A stretch of DNA of 64,000 nucleotides, taken from positions 1-64,000 of the forward strand of contig JAKLDN010000005.1 in NCBI GenBank assembly GCA_022703505.1, written 5' to 3'. Both the position numbers and the translations under genes were made by a program. The notes under the pieces were generated by a model, which was not told where the DNA came from, did not search any database, and was given only the letters and a program-made list of their open reading frames with translations. Below are positions 2,473 to 49,383 of the stretch, piece by piece (position 1 is the first letter of the stretch; every line of letters begins with the position of its first letter). Source of the DNA: Spirochaetota bacterium. Lineage in GTDB: Bacteria; Spirochaetota; Spirochaetia; Treponematales; UBA12059.

Positions 2473-4285
2473 AGATTTCGAAGGTATCCAGGGCCGCCTT
2501 GACCTCCCCGATCGAGGAGGCGGTCCGGGAGGCCAGGTCCATGGTCGCGGCGATGGCGTCGTTGATTTCCTTGGTGCCCGTCGTGATCTCCGCGTTGTTC
2601 TGGATCACGAGCTGGTTCACCGAGGTCAGGCGCTCCACCTGTTCCAGGATGGTCCGGTTGCCGGACTTCATCTCCTCCGCCCCGTAGGAGATCTCCCGGG
2701 TGAGGTCCTTGAGCCGGGACAAGTCCTCCAGGACCAGGCGGCCCCCCTCCCTCTGCTCGGCCATGGAGGCGTTGATGCGCCGGATCTCCGCGGCCAGGGC
2801 GTCCGCCTTGGCCAGCACGGTGCCGAAGGACTCCACCGCGGACAGGGACGCGTCCTGGACCTTCTCGATCGACCGGGACACCTGCCCGAGCCCCCCCGCG
2901 ATGTCCTTGGCCTGGGCCGTGGACTGCTCCGCGAGCCTTCGGATCTCGTCCGCCACCACCGCAAAGCCCCGGCCCGCGTCCCCGGCGTGGGCGGCCTCGA
3001 TAGCGGCGTTCATGGCCAGCAGGTTCGTGCGGCTGGCTATCTCGGAGATAAGGCGGACCGCCTCCGTGAGGTTCTCCGAGTGCCGGGCGATGTCCCGCAC
3101 GGAATCGCCCGCCTCGTCGATCCGCTCCTTGCCCTGGACCCCCTCGGCCGTCAGCTCCTCGCTGGCCCGGGCCGCCGAGTCCGCGGCGCGGGCTACGGAC
3201 TCCACGGAAGCGATGATCTCCTCCGTGGCCGCCGAGGATTGCCCGATCACGTCCGACTGGGTCTCGATCCGGTCCGACAGGGAGGTGACGCTCCGGGCCA
3301 GCTGCTCCACCGCCGCGGAGACCTCCTGGACGGATTCGGTCTGCTGGTCCAGCTGGCCCCGGGTGTTCCCGATGCCCGCGTTGATCTGGAGGACCGCGGC
3401 CCCGGTCTCCTCCATGTTCGCCGCCAGGCTCTGGCCCGTGGACTCCAGGTCCCGGACCTTCTCCATGACCGTGGACACGAGGTCCCGGATCCCGCAGACC
3501 AGGGCGTCCACGCTCCGGCCCATGCGGCCCATCTCGTCCCGTCCGTCCATGTCCGAGCAGGTCCGGAGATCCCCCCGGCCGGCCTGGGCCAGGGTATCCT
3601 CCAGCTTCCGCAGGGGCAGGGTTATGGACCGGACCGTCAGCAGGATCAGGAGGAGGGAGGCCAGGACGACCGCGCCGGACACCGAGATCACGGTCAGGCT
3701 GGCCGCGGCCGCGGACTTGCGCGCCCGGGACTCGACCTCGGAGGCCGCGGTCCGCGCGGCGGAGCCCTCCACCCAGATCCGCTCCTTGAGCTCCTCGAAG
3801 GTCGAATCGACCTGGACCATGACATCCAGGGCGCGGCGGGCGTCCTCCCGGAGGTAGCTCTGGACGACCCGGGCGGTGTTGAAGTAGGAATCGAAATCCG
3901 CCCCCGTTAGGCCCTTGGGGTTTCCGGACTCGTCGTACTCGAGGGTATCCAGGGTCTCCTCCGTGAAGGTATCCACGGAGGTCTTGAAGCCCGCCAAGGC
4001 CGTGTTGAACGCCCGGATGGCGTCCTCCCGGGCGTCCCCCCCGGACAGGGTGTAGTTGATCGCCCGGTACAGGTTGACCTGCACCGCGTAGGCCTGGTTC
4101 TCCAGGTCCTCGAACCTACGGACCTTCTTGTTCTGGACTTCCAGGATGTTGTCCATCGTGGCGGTCAGGGACCGGAACGCCTTCAGGGACACGTAGGCCA
4201 CCCCTCCCAGGGAGAGCAGGAAGACGGCCCCCAGGACCGTCAACTTCCCCAGGATCCCGATATTCGACAGCGCACGCCGTGCCAT
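2471..4285 (-). CDS. Methyl-accepting chemotaxis protein
   Basis: 604-aa membrane chemoreceptor that would feed a CheA/CheW array. TM1 covers about residues 13-33 and TM2 about 194-217. Between them lies a helical four-helix-bundle-type sensor of about 160 residues with no recognisable Cache or PAS motif. HAMP follows (about 218-270), then the signalling domain. The highly conserved hairpin tip ([20 protein letters not shown], then [20 protein letters not shown]) lies near residues 413-455. There is no CheR-tethering pentapeptide at the C-terminus (ends LDTFEI). The gene is monocistronic, with no che genes nearby, so it is an orphan receptor. The ligand cannot be told from sequence. Confidence 0.95.
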
Positions 4286-4315: not shown

Positions 4316-6778
4316 TCAGCCCTCCCCGACCACAATGTTCACTAGTTTATCGGGGACGATGATCACTTTGCGTAGCGGTTTCCCCGCGATCCACTCCCGG
4401 GTCTTCTCCCGCCCCAGGGCGAGCCTCTCGAGCTCCGCCTTGTCCGTACCCGCGGGAGCCTCGAACTTGTCCCGGACCTTCCCGTTCACCTGGACCACGA
4501 TGACCGCCGTGTCGTCCCGCACCAAGGTCTCGTCATAGGACGGCCAGGGGGCCAGCCCGACGCTGGGGGCCTTGCCCGCCTTCTCCCAGAGCTCCTCCGC
4601 CAGATGTGCGGCGTAGGGCGCCAGGAGCCGGACGAAGGCTTCCCAGACTTCCCGGGGAAGGACGTCCAGCCGAGCCAGCTCGTTGGACAGGATCATCATG
4701 GCGCTGATGGCGGTGTTGAAGTTCAGGGTGGCGGTGTCGTCCGTCACCTTCTTGATGGTCTTGTGCAGGAGCTTGGCGAGGTCCGGGGACGGAGCCGCCC
4801 CGGTCAGGGGTTTCTCCGAGAGGGCCCACAGGCGTTCCAGGAAGCGGCTGACCCCCACGAGTCCCGCGGTGGCCCAGGGTTTGGAGACCTCCAGGGGCCC
4901 CATGAACATCTCGTAGACCCGCATGGCGTCGGCGCCGAAGTCCCGGACGATGTCGTCGGGGTTCACCACGTTGCCCCGGCTCTTGGACATCTTCTGGTTG
5001 TCCTCGCCCAGGATCATGCCCTGGTTCACCAGGCGTTGGAAGGGCTCGATGGTGTTCACCGCCCCGATGTCGTAGAGGACCTTGTGCCAGAACCGGGAGT
5101 AGAGGAGGTGGAGCACCGCGTGCTCCGCCCCGCCCACGTAGAGGTCCACGGGCATCCAATAGTCGATCTTGTCCTTGGCCGCGAAGGCCTTGTCGTTCTT
5201 CGGGTCGATGAAGCGCAGGTAGTACCAGCAGGAGCCCGCCCACTGGGGCATGGTGTTCGTCTCCCGCTTGGCCGGTCCGCCGCACTTCGGGCAGGTGGTG
5301 TTCACCCAGTCGTGGATGTTCGCCAGGGGGGACTCCCCGGTGCCCGTGGGGGCGTAGGTCTTGACGTCCGGCAGGCGCAGGGGCAGCTCGCTCTCGGGCA
5401 GGGGCACGATGCCGCATTCCTTGCAGTGGACCACGGGGATGGGCTCGCCCCAGTAGCGCTGGCGGGAGAAGATCCAGTCCCGGAGCTTGTAGTTCACCGC
5501 CTTGCGGCCGATCCCCTTCTCCGCCAGCCATTCGGTGATGGCCTTGATGGCCTCGGCCGTGGGCAGGCCGTCGAATTTCCCGGAGTTGATCGCGACGCCC
5601 TCCGCGGAGGTGCACTCCGACGGTTCAGCGGGGCCCTCCTCGGGCCGGACCTCCCCGCTCCGGGCCTCCTCGCTGCCCGGGGCCGCCACCACCTGCACGA
5701 TGGGCAGGCCGAACTTCTTGGCGAAGTCCCAGTCCCGCTCGTCGTGGGCCGGCACGGCCATGATGGCCCCGGTCCCGTAGGAGGCCAGGATGTAGTCCGA
5801 GATCCACACGGGGATCCTGCGTCCGTTGACGGGGTTGACCGCGTAGGCCCCCGTGAACTCGCCGGTCTTGTCCTTGGCCAGGTCCGTGCGCTCCAGGTCG
5901 CTCTTCCGAGCCGCCTCGGCCACGTAGGCCTCCACAGCGGCCTTCCGGTCCGGGGTGGTGATCTTCGACACCAGGGCGTGCTCCGGGGCCAGGACCATGT
6001 AGGTGGCCCCGAAGAGGGTGTCCGGCCGGGTCGTATAGACCTCTATCTCCCCCTCGCCCTCGGCCATCTTGAAGACCACGTTGGCGCCCTCGCTCCGGCC
6101 GATCCAGTTGCGCTGCATCAGCTTGATGGACTCCGACCAGTCCAGGGTGTCCAGGTCGGCCAGGAGCCGGTCCGCGTAGGCGGTGATCCGGAGGATCCAC
6201 TGGCGGATGCTCTTGCGCACCACGGGGGTCTCGCAGCGGTCGCAGCGCCCGTCCTTGACCTCCTCGTTGGCCAGGCCCGTCTTGCACTTGGGGCACCAGT
6301 TGATCGGAGCCTCGGCCTCGTAGGCCAGGCCCCGCTCGAAGAGCTTGAGGAAGATCCACTGGGTCCACTTGTAGTAATCGGGATCGCAGGTGGAGACCTC
6401 CCGGTCCCAGTCGTAGGAGAAGCCCAGGGACTTGATCTGGGTCCGGAACCGGTCGATGTTGGCCGAGGTGGTGGCCGCGGGGTGGGTGCCCGTCTGGATG
6501 GCGTAGTTCTCCGCGGGCAGGCCGAAGGAGTCGAAGCCCATGGGATGGAGGACCGCGTACCCGTTCATCCGCAGGAAGCGGCAGTAGATGTCCGTGGCGG
6601 TGTAGCCCTCGGGATGCCCCACGTGGAGGCCCGCCCCGGAGGGATAGGGGAACATGTCCAGGACGTAGACCCGCTTGTCCGCGGGGATGCCCGGGTCCTC
6701 GACGGCCTTGAAGGTCTTGTGCTCGTCCCAGTAGCGCTGCCACTTGGACTCGATCTCGGTGTACGGGTACTTGGCCAT
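4316..6778 (-). CDS. leuS: Leucyl-tRNA synthetase
   Basis: Class I aminoacyl-tRNA synthetase charging tRNA-Leu (820 aa, full length for the bacterial type). The HIGH motif appears as HVGH (residues 52-55) within [23 protein letters not shown]1 editing domain occupies roughly residues 220-420, and two zinc-type CxxC pairs are visible (CPKC with CDRC, and CKEC). The KMSKS loop is [10 protein letters not shown] near residue 597. The C-terminal anticodon-binding region and a short terminal domain ending VNIVVGEG are present. The start ATG is preceded by CAGGAG. It stands alone with its own promoter-like upstream sequence. Confidence 0.98.
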
Positions 6779-41434: not shown

Positions 41435-42370
41435 ATCACGGATCGAGGCAAGCTCGGAGACAGGCTCATCCTGGAACGGCTCCGCGGGGCCGAAGGCCCC
41501 GTATCCGGGGAGTACCTGGCCCGGGACCTGGGGGTCAGCCGGGTGGCCCTCTGGAAGCGGATCGAGGCCCTCAGGGCCTGGGGCTACCGGATCGAGTCGA
41601 GCCGCCGGGGATACGCCCTGGTCCGGGACGACGGTCTGGCTCCGGCGGACCTGCCGCCTCCGGTCCGGGTCCTGTCCGAGGCGGGATCCACCATGGACGA
41701 AGCCCGGGACTGGGGAAGCGCGGGGGCTCCCTCCGGAGCCGCCGTCCTGGCCCTCCGGCAGAGCGCCGGCCGGGGCCGGGGCGGCCGAAGGTGGGAAAGC
41801 CCGGACGGCGGTCTTTACCTTTCCCTGGTCCTCCGCTCCGCCCTGCCCGCGGCCTGCGCGGGGGCCCTGGTCCTGGAGGCCGCGCGCTCCCTGCTGGATG
41901 CCCTGGCGACGGCCGGAATCCGGGGGGTCTCCTTCCGGTGGCCCAACGACCTCGTCGCGGGCCCCCGCAAGCTCGGGGGGATCCTGGCGGAATCCTTCGG
42001 GGGCCTGGACCGCCCCGAGTTCTACGTCCTTGGAATCGGGCTCAACGCCGCCCCCGTCGAGGTATCGGGCCGGGCGGCGGCGGGCCTCGCGGATCTGGCG
42101 CCGGGGCTGCCCCGGAGGCGGGACCTGGCCCTGGGCCTGTCCGAGTCCCTCCGGGCCTGGTGCGAACGCCCGGACACGGATCCCCGCCGCTGGGCGGGCC
42201 TGAAGCCAGACCCCCGGCGCCCGGCCCGCGCCGAGCTATGGGACGGCCGGATCCTGGGTATCCGTCCCCGGGGCTATACGACCCGGGGGGAGCTGGCCCG
42301 CGAAGGCGACGGCCCCGCGCTGGCCTTCGGGGAGTGCCGCAAGATGACCTACGAAGGAGAGGAACCTTGA
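41435..42370 (+). CDS. birA: Bifunctional biotin-protein ligase and biotin operon repressor
   Basis: About 311 aa. The N-terminal winged helix (residues 5-65) contains GEYLARDLGVSRVALWKRIE and RAWGYRIESSRRGYALV, equivalent to the DNA-binding part of E. coli BirA. The ligase domain has SAGRGRGGRRWESP (biotinyl-AMP loop) and FRWPNDLV with KLGGILAE. It attaches biotin to carboxylase carrier proteins and represses at the adjacent operator. The reading frame is open only back to a stop at 41411, and no ATG, GTG or TTG lies before the helix-turn-helix. AAAAGGAG (41421-41428) points to ATC at 41435 as the start. The first ATG-like codon (GTG at about 41540) would delete the helix-turn-helix. Confidence 0.88.
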   Translation: MTDRGKLGDRLILERLRGAEGPVSGEYLARDLGVSRVALWKRIEALRAWGYRIESSRRGYALVRDDGLAPADLPPPVRVLSEAGSTMDEARDWGSAGAPSGAAVLALRQSAGRGRGGRRWESPDGGLYLSLVLRSALPAACAGALVLEAARSLLDALATAGIRGVSFRWPNDLVAGPRKLGGILAESFGGLDRPEFYVLGIGLNAAPVEVSGRAAAGLADLAPGLPRRRDLALGLSESLRAWCERPDTDPRRWAGLKPDPRRPARAELWDGRILGIRPRGYTTRGELAREGDGPALAFGECRKMTYEGEEP

Positions 42371-42924
42371 AGAACAGACCCTGGAACCTCGCGGCGTCCG
42401 CCCTCTTCGCGGCCCTGATCTCCGCGGGCGCCCTCTTCTCCCTGCCCCTGCCGCCGCCTTTGCCCCCCGTGTCCCCGGCGGTCTTCTTCGTCCTCCTGGC
42501 GGGACTGGTCCTGGGTCCCGCCGGGGCGGGGGCTTCCGCGGGGATCTACCTGCTCCTGGGCTCCCTGGGCCTGCCCGTGTTCGCCAACGGGGCGGGGGGA
42601 CTGGGGCACTTCCTGGGGCCCACGGGGGGCTTCCTGGCAGGATACCTGGCCGCGGCCCTGGTGACCGGGGCCCTGGCCGACCGGAAGCGCTGGGGCGCGG
42701 GGCGATCCTTCCTGGCCGCCGTGGCCGGGGTCCTGGCCTTGTACGCCCTGGGCCTTCCCTGGATGCGGCAGGTCCTGGCGGCCAAGTTGGCCACCCTGGC
42801 CGCGGCGGCGGCCCTGATGCTCCCGTACTTCATCGGGGACCTGGTCAAGGCCGCCGCGGCTGCCCTCCTCGTCCGCGCCTTGAAGCCCGTACTGGAGCGG
42901 CACTTCCCCCGGGAGGACCTGTGA
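42367..42924 (+). CDS. bioY: Biotin ECF transporter substrate-binding component BioY
   Basis: 185-aa integral membrane S component that binds biotin with high affinity. Six hydrophobic segments are seen. Family features are FVLLAGLVLGPAGAGASAGI and LLLGSLGLPVFANGAGGLGH, followed by GPTGGFLAGYLAAALVTG, matching the BioY GxxGLPVFxxGxxGxxxxxGPTGGY(F)L signature. The start is TTG at 42367 overlapping the birA stop (TTGA), with GAAGGAGAGG upstream. Operon order birA-bioY-bioM-bioN and the BirA site make the substrate assignment firm. Confidence 0.95.
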   Translation: MKNRPWNLAASALFAALISAGALFSLPLPPPLPPVSPAVFFVLLAGLVLGPAGAGASAGIYLLLGSLGLPVFANGAGGLGHFLGPTGGFLAGYLAAALVTGALADRKRWGAGRSFLAAVAGVLALYALGLPWMRQVLAAKLATLAAAAALMLPYFIGDLVKAAAAALLVRALKPVLERHFPREDL

Positions 42925-43667
42925 GGCTGGAGGCCCGCGGCCTGGTGCGGATCTTCCCGGACGGCACCCGGGCCCTGGACGGGGCGGACCTGGAGCTCCG
43001 GACGCCCTGCTTCATGGTCCTGTCCGGGCCCAACGGGAGCGGCAAGACCGTCCTGGCCCGGCATTTCGTGGGCCTTGAGAAGCCCCAGGCCGGGGCCGTC
43101 CTGGTCGACGGGGTCCCCGTGGAGCGGTGCCTGGCGGAGACCCGGCGCCGGGTGGGCTTCGTGTTCCAGGAGCCGGAGCACCAGATCCTGGGGATCACCG
43201 CCGGGGAGGACGTGGAGTTCGGGATCCGCGTAAGAGTCCCGGACCGGGGGGAGCGCCGCCGCCGGGCGCTCCGGGCCCTCCGGGACGCGGGCCTGGCCGG
43301 GTCGGAGGATCGCCTGGCCTCGTCCCTCTCGGGGGGCCAGAAGCGTCGCCTGGCCGTGGCCTCCGCCCTGGTCTCGGACCCGGAGCTGGTCATCCTGGAC
43401 GAGCCCTTCAACGGCCTGGACCCGGCGGGGGCCTCGGGGCTCCTGCGGATGCTCCTTTCGCTCCGGGATCGGGGAGTGGGGATCCTCCTGGTGACCCACG
43501 ACCTGGAGAAGTGCCTGGCCCACGCGGACCGCCTGGCGGTCCTGGACTCCGGTCGGGTGGCCGCGGACGGCCCTCCCGCGGAGCTCTGGGACCGGCTTCC
43601 GTCCCTGGGCCTCCGACGGCCGCCGGGAGGGTCCGGGCGGCTGGAGGAGATGACATGGCTGGATTGA
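42921..43667 (+). CDS. bioM: Biotin ECF transporter ATPase BioM
   Basis: 248-aa energy-coupling ATPase. Walker A is GPNGSGKT (about 36-43). The Q-loop region is VGFVFQEPEHQILGITAGED, where FQxPExQ is typical of ECF ATPases. The signature is LSGGQKRR, and Walker B is LVILDEPFNGLD, followed by the switch VTHD. The GTG start overlaps the bioY stop. As the only ATPase here it would form a homodimer beneath BioN and BioY. Confidence 0.95.
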   Translation: MRLEARGLVRIFPDGTRALDGADLELRTPCFMVLSGPNGSGKTVLARHFVGLEKPQAGAVLVDGVPVERCLAETRRRVGFVFQEPEHQILGITAGEDVEFGIRVRVPDRGERRRRALRALRDAGLAGSEDRLASSLSGGQKRRLAVASALVSDPELVILDEPFNGLDPAGASGLLRMLLSLRDRGVGILLVTHDLEKCLAHADRLAVLDSGRVAADGPPAELWDRLPSLGLRRPPGGSGRLEEMTWLD

Positions 43668-44335
43668 ACGGCCGCCCCGCCGCCTTCCCATCGGACTACC
43701 GCGCCCGCTTAGCCCTCTACCTGGCCCTGCAGGCCGCTGTCTTCCTGGCCCCCGGGCCGACCATCCTCCTGCCCGCCGCCGTCGTCGCGGTCCTGGGAGC
43801 CCGGGCGGGGGTGGACTGGGGACGGTGGCTGGTCCGACTAGGTCCCCTGCTGGGAATGATCCTCCTGCCCGCCCTGGCGGGCTTGCCGGAGGCCTGGCCG
43901 GTTCGGGCCGAGGGAGCCGCCTTCCTGGCCGCCTGGTCGCCGGGTCTGCGAAGGAGCCTGGCCTTCCTGCTGGTCCTGGCCTCGGCGGAATGGCTTTCCC
44001 GGACCACCCGGGTCGACGAAATCCGGGATACCCTGGAAGGCCTGCTCGGCCCCCTGGGACCCCGGGGACGGCGGGCGGCTCTGGCCGCGGCCCTGACCCT
44101 GGGATTCCTGCCCTGGGCGCGGTACGAGCTGGCCCGGGCGGACGAGGCCGCCCGCCTCCGGGGTTCGGACCCCCGGCGCGGTCCCCTGAGGCACCTGGCC
44201 GTCCTGGGGATACCCCTGACGGCCCGTCTGCTGGAAAAGGCGCGCCTAAGCTCGGAGGCCCTGGCCCTGCGGGATGCGGATCCGGACCCGGGCGCCTCGA
44301 ACCTTGCCAGGAGCCCCCGCAGGTTCTACAGTTAG
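43655..44335 (+). CDS. bioN: Biotin ECF transporter transmembrane component BioN
   Basis: 226-aa T component. N-terminal membrane helices (LALYLALQAAVFLAPGPTIL, then PAAVVAVLGA) are followed by two further hydrophobic segments. The cytoplasmic coupling helices show the paired Ala-Arg-Gly-like motifs ADEAARLRG and SEALALRDAD, the second in a weakened form. It links BioM ATP hydrolysis to BioY toppling. The ATG lies 11 bp inside bioM with GGAGGAG upstream. The gene ends the operon; no terminator with a T tract is visible in the 16 nt before the next gene. Confidence 0.88.
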   Translation: MAGLNGRPAAFPSDYRARLALYLALQAAVFLAPGPTILLPAAVVAVLGARAGVDWGRWLVRLGPLLGMILLPALAGLPEAWPVRAEGAAFLAAWSPGLRRSLAFLLVLASAEWLSRTTRVDEIRDTLEGLLGPLGPRGRRAALAAALTLGFLPWARYELARADEAARLRGSDPRRGPLRHLAVLGIPLTARLLEKARLSSEALALRDADPDPGASNLARSPRRFYS

Positions 44336-45766: not shown

Positions 45767-45799
45767 GGCGGCCCGCCGAGGAGGGGGCCGCCGCTTTTT
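45767..45799 (+). terminator. Rho-independent terminator
   Basis: GGCGGCCC (45767-45774) pairs with GGGCCGCC (45785-45792) and is followed by GC and five T residues (45795-45799), 10 nt after the small secreted protein stop. Confidence 0.8.
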
Positions 45800-45810
45800 C
45801 CGGCTCCACG

Positions 45811-45839
45811 TTGCGCCCGCGTCGATCGGGTGATACGAT
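45811..45839 (+). promoter_or_regulatory. Promoter of the H1-like/tail-fibre fusion gene
   Basis: TTGCGC (45811-45816), 17 nt, TACGAT (45834-45839), 71 nt upstream of the ATG. The promoter and leader are repeated almost unchanged at 48928-49029. Confidence 0.65.
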
Positions 45840-45910
45840 TTCCCCGACGTCGCGGCGGTTCCCGCCCGGGGCGGCCGAGACGATCCATCCGGAAAACAAA
45901 GGAGAACGTC

Positions 45911-47461
45911 ATGGCCGCCACCAAGAAACCCTCGAAGGCACCCCCAGCCTCTGCAAAACCGAAGACCGGCAAGAAGCCGGCCGCCGCGCCCCCGGTAAGC
46001 AAAGCCGCCTCGAAGACGGCCAAGCCCGCGCCGAAACAGTCGGCCAGGCCGACCGCAAAGAAACCGACGGCCGCAGCATCCAAGACCGCTCCGCGGAAGC
46101 CCCTTCCGGAATCCGTGATCCCGATCCCCGGCACTGCCCCGGACGTACCCGCCCAGATCGTCGCGTTCCTGGAGAAGTTCGACGCCCTGAAGGCCGGCAA
46201 GACCTGGGCCGTGAAGGCCGCAGCCCTGATCGAGAAGATCCCCGCGGCCCTGTTCGGCGAGTTCGAGGATGCCCTGGACCTGGAGACGCCCCTTTCCACG
46301 GGCAAGATCCCCCTGCACCTGATCGACCCTAAAACGGCCAAGACGGCCGCCGCCAAGACCGGCAAGGGGACGATCCCCGCGCCCCGGCCCTCCCCCAAGA
46401 CCTTCGGGACCGCCATCCTCGGAAACAAGATCGGCCGGGAGGAGTTGGTGGAACTCGTGGAGCGCCTGCGCTGGTGCCTCTGCTGCTGCCACTGCTGGCC
46501 CTGCCGACCCTGGCCCTTCTGCAGGATCTGCCGGTGGCGCCTGGTCAAGGTGAGCAGCACGGCGGATTCCGGCTGGGTCTATCACCTCAACTTCAAGAAC
46601 GCGTCGGCCGCCATCGCGGACCGGGTGGCGGAAATCTCCTGCCCGTCCGGAGGATCCTCGGGCGGCCCCTGGGCTCCCCAGGTCTGGAACGCGTCGACCC
46701 CGGCCGCCGAGGCCCCGGTCGGATATGCCGAGGCGGGCCACGATCACGACGGGGTCTACTCCGCCACCGGGCACAACCACGACGCGGCGTACGCGCCGAA
46801 ACAGAAGAGCGGGGCGGATATCAAGTACGCCGAGATCGACGCGCCCGTGGGGCAGACCGTCAAGTTGAGGGACAAGGCTACATCGCCCTCCCCCGCGGAC
46901 GTGACGGTCAGCCTGTCGGGGCACAACCATGATACGGCGTACGCGGCGGCCGGGCACAATCACGATACGGCGTATGCGGCCGCCGGGCACAACCACAATA
47001 CGGTGTATGCTGCTGCCGGACATAACCATGACTCTTCCTACGCGGCAGCCGGACACAACCACGATTCAGCGTACGCGGCGGCGAGCCACGACAACACAAG
47101 CCATACGAAGAAGTACTTCTCCCGAACGAACCTGATCATGAAGGCGAACCCGGACACCACGTTGGACGCGGGACACTACTGGGTTAAGATTCAACTCAGC
47201 TTGCCGGTGGGGTTTGCCCCGGGCACGAGCAATTGGGCCGAGTGCGTCTCCGGGGTATGTATGGATCCGACCATGGCCGCCGCCCCCCTGGACCTCCAAG
47301 CCGTTTCGCCGACGATCATCACGGAGTTGGAGGGCGGAGTAAACGTGCCCAAGCTCAAGTTCCGCCTCACGGATTCCGGCGGAACCGACTACCGGAAAAA
47401 CAACGGTATCTGGGCAGGCAAGCTCGTCGTGGTTACCGTGGCGGCGCCCGTCACGGACTGA
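45911..47461 (+). CDS. Histone-H1-like N-terminus fused to a Cys-rich segment and GHxH tail-fibre-like repeats
   Basis: 516-aa mosaic protein with no signal peptide. Residues 1-65 are a Lys/Ala/Pro-rich H1/HctB-like tail. A folded helical part follows (about 75-185). Residues 189-207 are a cysteine cluster, CLCCCHCWPCRPWPFCRIC, with 8 Cys in 19. From about residue 275, and densely at 337-392, an 11-residue repeat of the form GHNHDTAYAAA occurs at least five times. It resembles the His-x-His metal-binding repeats that trimerise phage tail fibres. The last 115 residues are a beta-rich head ending LVVVTVAAPVTD. The repeats suggest a trimeric fibre; the basic tail suggests binding to DNA or another polyanion. 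Function unknown. Confidence 0.82.
   Translation: MAATKKPSKAPPASAKPKTGKKPAAAPPVSKAASKTAKPAPKQSARPTAKKPTAAASKTAPRKPLPESVIPIPGTAPDVPAQIVAFLEKFDALKAGKTWAVKAAALIEKIPAALFGEFEDALDLETPLSTGKIPLHLIDPKTAKTAAAKTGKGTIPAPRPSPKTFGTAILGNKIGREELVELVERLRWCLCCCHCWPCRPWPFCRICRWRLVKVSSTADSGWVYHLNFKNASAAIADRVAEISCPSGGSSGGPWAPQVWNASTPAAEAPVGYAEAGHDHDGVYSATGHNHDAAYAPKQKSGADIKYAEIDAPVGQTVKLRDKATSPSPADVTVSLSGHNHDTAYAAAGHNHDTAYAAAGHNHNTVYAAAGHNHDSSYAAAGHNHDSAYAAASHDNTSHTKKYFSRTNLIMKANPDTTLDAGHYWVKIQLSLPVGFAPGTSNWAECVSGVCMDPTMAAAPLDLQAVSPTIITELEGGVNVPKLKFRLTDSGGTDYRKNNGIWAGKLVVVTVAAPVTD
46919..47083 (+). repeat. 33-bp tandem coding repeat (GHNHD motif)
   Basis: Five consecutive 33-bp units encode GHNHDTAYAAA-type 11-mers with small variations (GHNHNTVYAAA, GHNHDSSYAAA). 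Two more degenerate units lie upstream (GHDHDGVYSAT, GHNHDAAYA). Confidence 0.85.
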
Positions 47462-47467
47462 ATCCCA

Positions 47468-48718
47468 TCAGGGGGTGAAACGGTAGATCGTATTCACCGG
47501 TGGTGAGGACATGGAAACGAGTCCGCCGGAGACGTAGACATACCCCCCCGAGCTCGCGGCCGCGGGATAATCCAAGGCCGCGGGCATCGTGAAGTCCTGG
47601 GACTCCCCCTCCGAATCCGAGTATTTCCTTACCGCGGCAGAGATACCGATTACATACCCTCCGAAGAGGTATACGTTTCCCAGGTCGGCGGCAGAGGCGA
47701 ATCGGTACGACGAAGTAGTCAGATCCGTAAGATCCGATATGGAAGGGCCGGACGGATCGAAGGAGCCTACGTCCTTCGTCGACATGGATCCGCCGACAAG
47801 GAGGATTCCCGCTCCAATTGGGACAGCCTGAAAGTAGGTGCGGTCCGAGTACAATCCCGACGAAAGTGTAACGGCGGCCGGATCGGACCCCGGTGAGTAT
47901 GCGTAGATTGTATCTAAGGAACCGACGCCACTGTCTCCGGGGAATATGTAGATGACACCGCCAGAAACCGCAGCGCAAAGGTTGTCTATAGCCACGGGCA
48001 GCTCGTCGGTGACAGTTGTCCAGTTCCCGGGGTTCTGCGTATCGAATACCTCGATTGAAGCGGAAGGGACGAGGACAGGATCAGGGTCAGGGACACCATT
48101 AACAGTTCCCCCGATGACATAGATTTTTCTGTTCAATACCGCGATTCCGAAAGCCGCGCGGGCAGAGTTCAAATCATATCCAAGATCGGAAACAACCCCG
48201 GTACCGACATCATACACCTCGCAGTCCGCCGTCATGAGTCCGAAGCTTTGATCTGTGAAGCCCCCAATGATATAGATCTTCCCATCCACTTCAACGGCGC
48301 CGTGCCCCATCCGGGCTGTCGTCAATGTAGCCGACATCTTTTTCCAGGCGAGTTCGAAGGTCCGGGATGCGACAGACGACTCCCGCAGGCCGGGTTTAAA
48401 AGCACGCGCCTTGACGGTCGTCGCATCCTCCGTCCCGGCCAGGTTGAATGGAACGGTGTATTGGTAATTAGTAGCCGAAACCGTATTCGTAGGGGTGCTT
48501 CCGTTCAGCGTGTAGTATATATCCGCGCCGCCGTTCGGATCCGTGATCGTGACGGATCGGCCTCGGGCAGGAGTCATAGAGTATCTAAAGTCCGGTTCCC
48601 CGTTGCTTATCACCGGCGGCTGGAGTGTCTCAGTCTCCACGTTGATGTTCTGGCAGGAAAGCGCCGCGGCTAGGAGGGCGAGGGCGGCGAGACCGGACGC
48701 GATGCTTCGAGTCCTCAT
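47468..48718 (-). CDS. Kelch-type beta-propeller lipoprotein with chitobiase-like domain
   Basis: 416-aa predicted lipoprotein (MRTRSIASGLAALALLAAAL then SC, Cys22). A chitobiase/beta-hexosaminidase C-terminal-type domain (CHB_HEX_C_1) covers about 30-125, with the diagnostic DPNGGADIYYTLNGSTPT. Five or six kelch-like blades follow: RMGHGAVEVDGKIYIIGGFT, RAAFGIAVLNRKIYVIGGTV, then GGVIYIF, GAGILLVGGS, GNVYLFGGYV and GGYVYVSGGLV. The gene has clearly lower GC than its neighbours. The ATG at 48718 follows AAGAGG. It is probably a surface-exposed protein for binding carbohydrate or other proteins. Confidence 0.87.
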   Translation of the reverse strand: MRTRSIASGLAALALLAAALSCQNINVETETLQPPVISNGEPDFRYSMTPARGRSVTITDPNGGADIYYTLNGSTPTNTVSATNYQYTVPFNLAGTEDATTVKARAFKPGLRESSVASRTFELAWKKMSATLTTARMGHGAVEVDGKIYIIGGFTDQSFGLMTADCEVYDVGTGVVSDLGYDLNSARAAFGIAVLNRKIYVIGGTVNGVPDPDPVLVPSASIEVFDTQNPGNWTTVTDELPVAIDNLCAAVSGGVIYIFPGDSGVGSLDTIYAYSPGSDPAAVTLSSGLYSDRTYFQAVPIGAGILLVGGSMSTKDVGSFDPSGPSISDLTDLTTSSYRFASAADLGNVYLFGGYVIGISAAVRKYSDSEGESQDFTMPAALDYPAAASSGGYVYVSGGLVSMSSPPVNTIYRFTP

Positions 48719-48927
48719 GGCTTGCCTCTTTTCTCGGATTGTTACGACAATTCTATCCCATCCCGGGGGATTTTGCACGAATCCCGCGCAGGATGCCGAC
48801 CCGCCGCATCCATCCTCTTTACCCTCGACCTACGCCGCGAAGACCGGCCGAGGTCCGTACCTTCCGAAATCGGACCGTCGAGAGTTAGTCCGCCGAAACG
48901 AGTCCTGTACGATTTCCCGCCGAAACA
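48719..48927. other. Gene-free divergent region
   Basis: Together with the leader at 48928-49029 this is a gene-free stretch of 311 nt between the kelch lipoprotein (minus) and the H1-like gene (plus). A TAGAAT box on the minus strand (near 48755) could be the -10 of the kelch gene, but I see no convincing -35. Nothing else is recognisable before the promoter at 48928. Confidence 0.4.
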
Positions 48928-48956
48928 TTGCGCCCGCGCTTGAACAGTGCTACGAT
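48928..48956 (+). promoter_or_regulatory. Promoter of the H1-like protein gene
   Basis: TTGCGC (48928-48933), 17 nt, TACGAT (48951-48956). The following leader up to the ATG at 49030 is nearly the same as 45840-45910, sharing GACGTCGCGGCG and GAGACGATCCAT blocks and the AAAGGAGA ribosome-binding site. Confidence 0.65.
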
Positions 48957-49029
48957 TCTATCGACGTCGCGGCGCAAACGCCCGGGGGGCGGCCCGAGAC
49001 GATCCATACGGAAACCAAAGGAGATGTTC

Positions 49030-49383
49030 ATGGCCGCAAGCAAACCCGCGAAGGAACCCGCAGCCGCCGCGAAACCCAAGACCGAGAAGAAACCGGCCGA
49101 GAAGAAAGCCGCGGCGCCCAAGCCCGTTGCCGTCAAGAAGCCGGCTGCCAAGCCCGCTGCCGAGAAGAAGCCCGCAGCCAAACCGGCCGCCAAGCCCGCC
49201 GCCGCCAAGAAGCCCGCAGCCAAACCGGCCGCCAAGCCCGCCGCCGCCAAGAAGCCCGCAGCCAAACCGGCCGCCAAGCCCGCCGCCGCCGACAAGCCCG
49301 TCGAGAAGAAAGCTGCGGCTCCCAAGCCCGCGGCCGCCAAGAAGCCCGTCGCCAAACCGGCTGCCAAGCCGACGGGAAAGTAA
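49030..49383 (+). CDS. Histone-H1-like Lys/Ala/Pro-rich protein
   Basis: 117-aa protein made almost only of Lys, Ala and Pro with a few Glu, Val and Thr. It begins MAASKPAKEPAAAAKPKTEK and continues in KKPAAKPAAKPAA repeats. It is homologous in its first 25 residues to the N-terminus of the fusion protein at 45911. Such proteins (H1/HctB-like, AlgP-like) bind DNA or RNA non-specifically and are intrinsically disordered. A 42-bp tandem repeat makes up the middle. The ATG follows AAAGGAGA at optimal spacing. Copy-number change in the repeat is likely among strains. Confidence 0.85.
   Translation: MAASKPAKEPAAAAKPKTEKKPAEKKAAAPKPVAVKKPAAKPAAEKKPAAKPAAKPAAAKKPAAKPAAKPAAAKKPAAKPAAKPAAADKPVEKKAAAPKPAAAKKPVAKPAAKPTGK
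49165..49290 (+). repeat. 42-bp tandem coding repeat, three units
   Basis: Units start at 49165, 49207 and 49249, each encoding KKPAAKPAAKPAAA. A degenerate unit follows at 49291. Confidence 0.9.

Follow-up and report, generated by a model that had tools for sequence, protein, structure and literature searches.

What kind of protein joins, in a single chain, a histone-H1-like Lys/Ala/Pro tail, a dense cysteine cluster and the GHNHD repeats of a phage tail fibre, and why is it encoded in a spirochaete genome outside any phage? The question is posed by a gene at 45911-47461 of the window, the 64,000-nucleotide stretch of a Spirochaetota bacterium (genome G000) analysed here. We propose, with a probability of about 0.5, that this gene is half of a two-gene, horizontally exchanged Spirochaetota recognition cassette, whose two products are a tail-fibre protein of phage type and a lipoprotein with a kelch propeller.

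The Fibre-Like Gene and Its Protein

The locus comprises the following elements (window coordinates, strand in brackets):

45796-45983 (+), leader and opening codons of the H1-like gene, left copy; alignment to the G002 locus extends to about 46063
45911-47461 (+), fibre-like protein gene, 516 aa, with homologues in G010, G015, G016 and G017
45911-46114 (+), tail rich in Lys, Ala and Pro (residues 1-68), whose initial 24 codons, at least, come from the H1-like gene
46115-46702 (+), conserved family core, residues 69-264, a predicted helical region and the Cys cluster
46475-46531 (+), eight-Cys cluster, residues 189-207
46703-47119 (+), shaft with HxH (GHNHD) repeats, residues 265-403
47120-47461 (+), variable C-terminal tip, residues 404-516 (~113 aa)
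47468-48718 (-), kelch-repeat lipoprotein with SCQNINV lipobox, Fn3_assoc/CHB_HEX_C_1 and kelch propeller, convergent with the fibre gene
48913-49043 (+), leader and opening codons of the H1-like gene, right copy
49030-49383 (+), H1-like KPA-repeat protein gene, about 117 aa, with a 46-aa orthologue in G002

The fibre-like reading frame opens with an ATG preceded by AAAGGAG, and its coding status is backed by a GC3 of 0.76-0.92 and by homologues in other genera. The parts of the chain singled out by an initial annotation of this DNA are all present: the 68-residue tail forms the N-terminus and contains 15 Lys, 2 Arg, 18 Ala, 14 Pro and one acidic residue; the cluster, CLCCCHCWPCRPWPFCRIC, packs eight Cys into 19 residues, far above chance (this density was reached in none of 20,000 shuffled versions of the protein); and seven HxH motifs (at 277, 288, 338, 349, 360, 371 and 382, spanning 277-384) are spaced by 11 residues within their runs. 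The region between tail and Cys cluster is probably helical, as judged by prediction.

The annotation was also right that the protein lacks a signal peptide: a sequence check found its N-terminus devoid of a hydrophobic segment, in contrast to the products of the neighbouring kelch, CsgG-like and 122-aa genes, which all have one. Neither this nor the other hallmark of trimeric autotransporter adhesins, a C-terminal membrane-anchor domain, was found. A Pfam scan of the protein returned zero matches, including no tail-fibre N-terminal domain of the PF12571 type and, in the tip, neither a domain nor a toxin signature; the PDB holds no sequence relatives. AlphaFold2 confidence was low, with a pLDDT of 31 for the whole protein (two-sequence alignment) and 34.5 for the C-terminal part alone.

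Origin of the Lys/Ala/Pro Tail

The initial annotation considered a functional role for the basic tail, raising the idea of a DNA-linking or polyanion-captured filament of which the tail is the working part. A repeat search points to another origin. The untranslated leader and first codons of the fibre gene recur 3.1 kb downstream, before the H1-like KPA-repeat gene, and the leader of that gene has a sole strong second match genome-wide, at 45808-45983 (~175 bp, 78%, E 3e-31); when restricted to the untranslated part, the match still scores 90, and none of 500 shuffles exceeds 24. Clear DNA homology of the tail to the H1-like gene covers ~24 codons, and the composition of the remainder suggests that it, too, came from that gene. 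The H1-like protein itself matches PF07382 with an E-value of 0.0018, below the curated cut-off, and its length varies through the KPA repeats, from 46 aa in G002 (L028, about 3150-3300, minus strand) to ~117 aa in G000.

G002, a genome of the same genus, presents the locus in its empty form: a collinear series of a CsgG-like gene, a 122-aa gene, one 46-aa H1-like gene and a DUF362 gene, with neither fibre nor kelch gene, and a single leader that aligns to both the left and the right copy of G000. On the simplest reading of these alignments, the H1-like gene has a duplicated 5' end and the fibre-kelch pair lies inside that duplication, which would explain why the fibre carries that gene's leader and Lys/Ala/Pro start. 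The three leader copies (two in G000, one in G002) are roughly equidistant, at 74-78%, so their age cannot decide between gain in the G000 lineage and loss in G002.

Biotin-ligase-like, BioY-like and ECF transporter-like genes lie upstream of the locus at 41543-44335, in the same order in G002.

On the sequences compared, the tail is not part of the fibre protein family. Strongly basic and H1-like as the segment is, its confinement to one lineage and its explanation by fusion with a neighbouring gene make a DNA-linking or polyanion-captured filament very improbable; the tail would be a by-product of gene fusion and at most a weak polyanion-binding tether. What looked like an odd chimera can be traced to a gene fusion, and a related genome has the locus in its empty form.

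A Tail-Less Family with a Lipoprotein Partner

Homologues with other N-termini, which the initial annotation had envisaged, do exist. They occur in G016 and in three genomes of genus g9 (G010, G015 and G017), that is, in two genera besides that of the source; all have the core and Cys cluster, and none has the Lys/Ala/Pro tail. The closest, in G016, begins MAVITDPADAIPKEI and is 54-57% identical across the core; the MAG HGW-Spirochaetae-3 (Spirochaetota) contains an identical locus. No further homologues were found among the 394 order-level and 393 phylum-level genomes sampled. Weak matches in G014, G200, G347 and G449 were judged spurious (short or stop-containing frames, or unrelated contexts), and a Streptomyces match (L014) was dismissed as antisense to a transporter gene.

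The HxH shaft is limited to the G000 and G016 proteins, with seven motifs in the former, four in the shaft of the latter and none or one in the g9 homologues. Metal binding, which the annotation had attributed to the fibre, is consequently not a family trait.

What the annotation had not mentioned is a constant partner. Each of the five fibre genes is followed by a convergently oriented gene for a lipoprotein, and all five lipoproteins belong to one family. In the partner at 47468-48718, the signal was recognised from a computed hydrophobic segment and a lipobox read by eye. Both of the partner proteins scanned against Pfam (two of the five) contain an Fn3_assoc/CHB_HEX_C_1 domain and kelch repeats, the kelch match (PF01344, E 1e-23) lying above the cut-off. 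The literature searched contained no description of such a kelch lipoprotein in spirochaetes. The N-terminal module of the lipoprotein recurs without a fibre in other proteins (L037, G000:C3:16966-17307; L039, G010:C2).

In G016 and g9, a third gene, divergent to the lipoprotein gene, encodes a secreted protein without a Pfam match, which we infer from its sequence to be outer-membrane barrel-like; in G000 it lies on another contig. The barrel-like gene of G001 (L059:3196-4107), interrupted by an in-frame TAG, is a possible pseudogene. G008 may hold a variant of the locus: at a contig end, a lipoprotein gene of another kind (Fn3 domains, CQQNLNVDD start; L066:168-1106, minus strand) is divergent to the barrel-like gene.

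Block Replacement of Propeller, Shaft and Tip

The pair is conserved at its outer edges, namely the lipoprotein-signal end of the kelch gene and the fibre core including the Cys cluster. Between related genomes, the inner 1.3-1.6 kb, which encode the propeller and the fibre shaft and tip, are replaced as a block. G015 and G010 share ~88% DNA identity outside the island and no similarity across L032:4413-6012, a stretch that begins just past the kelch signal peptide and ends at the fibre core. Between G015 and G017, likewise ~88% identical outside, the similarity gap runs from 4669 to 6002 and homology extends into the N-terminal part of the kelch protein; the two comparisons nearly agree on the position of the right edge. 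The flanking proteins share 81-86% identity. The gap between conserved edges implies that propeller, fibre tip and shaft were exchanged together.

Tip and kelch types co-segregate, {G000, G015, G017} against {G016, G010}, whereas the fibre cores group otherwise, {G000, G016} against g9. The core grouping of G000 with G016 conflicts with the RpoB tree, which, read with G012 and G017 left out, puts g1 beside g9. Drawn from five loci, this discordance and the co-segregation suggest horizontal exchange but are not conclusive; the tips of G016 and G010 resemble each other weakly (z 4.2).

A conserved N-terminus, a replaced C-terminus and a co-replaced lipoprotein neighbour are also what a polymorphic effector pair would display, in which the fibre would deliver the swapped tip as an effector and the lipoprotein would be the matched immunity or receptor protein. 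We consider this improbable, given a tip devoid of Pfam domain and toxin signature, genes that are convergent rather than co-directional, and a partner whose large propeller sets it apart from typical immunity proteins.

Relation to Phage Fibres

The GHNHD repeat, taken alone, matches true phage tail fibres, as the annotation had recognised, and repeat-only relatives occur in viral contigs. One such fibre, in the phage locus L067, carries PF12571 and is encoded directly after Baseplate_J and Tail_P2_I genes. At L067:5353-7796, the GHNHD tail fibre is followed by a gene of propeller-like repeats, a layout like that of the fibre-kelch pair. The similarity of the spirochaete tip to the L067 and L068 phage fibre tips is not significant, and neighbourhood maps place the fibre gene in no tail-gene operon, in agreement with the non-phage setting noted in the annotation.

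The pair might be a lost-prophage leftover or moron, a tail-fibre gene and a phage-type propeller gene that happened to survive together. The phage-matching repeat and the L067 layout speak for this, as do the lower GC3 of the kelch gene and the matches of its protein to PHROG families, one of them a virion structural protein. We nevertheless deem it unlikely, because no contig in the phage, plasmid and IMG/VR collections encodes a relative of the whole protein, the reading frames are intact in five genomes, the partner has a lipoprotein signal, and the pair is kept with conserved edges in 3/3 g9 genomes.

If a tailocin or extracellular contractile injection system were encoded at another site in the genome, the fibre could be loaded onto it; this would suit a tail-fibre-like repeat without a signal peptide, and tip exchange is known for tailocin fibres (PMC13195805). 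This alternative is strongly disfavoured: neither Phage_sheath_1 nor Baseplate_J has a match in the G000 genome (assembly 98.5% complete), which makes such a fibre unlikely, and the partner is a lipoprotein.

A Candidate Recognition Cassette

We favour the recognition cassette described at the outset. The architecture and variation of the genes point to a surface recognition pair with swappable specificity, in which the fibre would be a trimer held by the core/Cys region, fibre tip and propeller together would bind a surface ligand (a glycan, a phage or a neighbouring cell), and co-replacement would keep the two matched. Against this count a fibre with neither a signal peptide nor a known export route, the lack of structural support (AlphaFold2 pLDDT 31-35), a co-segregation that rests on five loci with one weak tip likeness, and the near-equal distances of the leader copies.

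More tentatively, the pair may be a specificity cassette of spirochaetes not described before, serving in self/non-self or receptor recognition and exported by a route of its own. Block replacement between two conserved gene ends would then diversify its two members, the phage-fibre-like protein and the kelch lipoprotein of the outer surface, in concert. The locus is an unannotated, hypervariable, surface-type gene pair whose matched fibre-tip/propeller variation is directly testable and, if our reading is true, parts of phage fibres have been reused as a bacterial recognition module.

Comparison with Known Systems

Four known systems share features with the locus:

(i) AlgP (PMC9239181) and chlamydial Hc2 (PMC2848022) resemble the H1-like neighbour gene, the source of the tail, in their Lys/Ala/Pro repeats of variable length. 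Unlike them, the fibre protein carries merely the captured 5' end of such a gene.

(ii) Polymorphic toxin-immunity systems (PMC3482391) likewise combine a conserved N-terminus, a swapped C-terminus and a linked neighbour gene. The spirochaete pair differs in its convergent gene order and in that no toxin domain was found.

(iii) Phage tail-collar fibres and T4 gp37-type shafts, the HxH motifs of T4 gp37 being reported to bind iron (PMC11705849), share 11-residue HxH repeats (here GHNHD...Y), a conserved N-terminal part and a variable C-terminal tip. The spirochaete fibre has no tail-fibre Pfam domain and no tail operon, whereas it does have a Cys cluster and a lipoprotein partner, and HxH is nearly lost in g9.

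(iv) Tailocins exchange fibre parts and tips by recombination while the rest stays (PMC13195805). The spirochaete locus resembles them in this respect and differs in having no tailocin genes and, as the co-exchanged partner, a convergent kelch lipoprotein.
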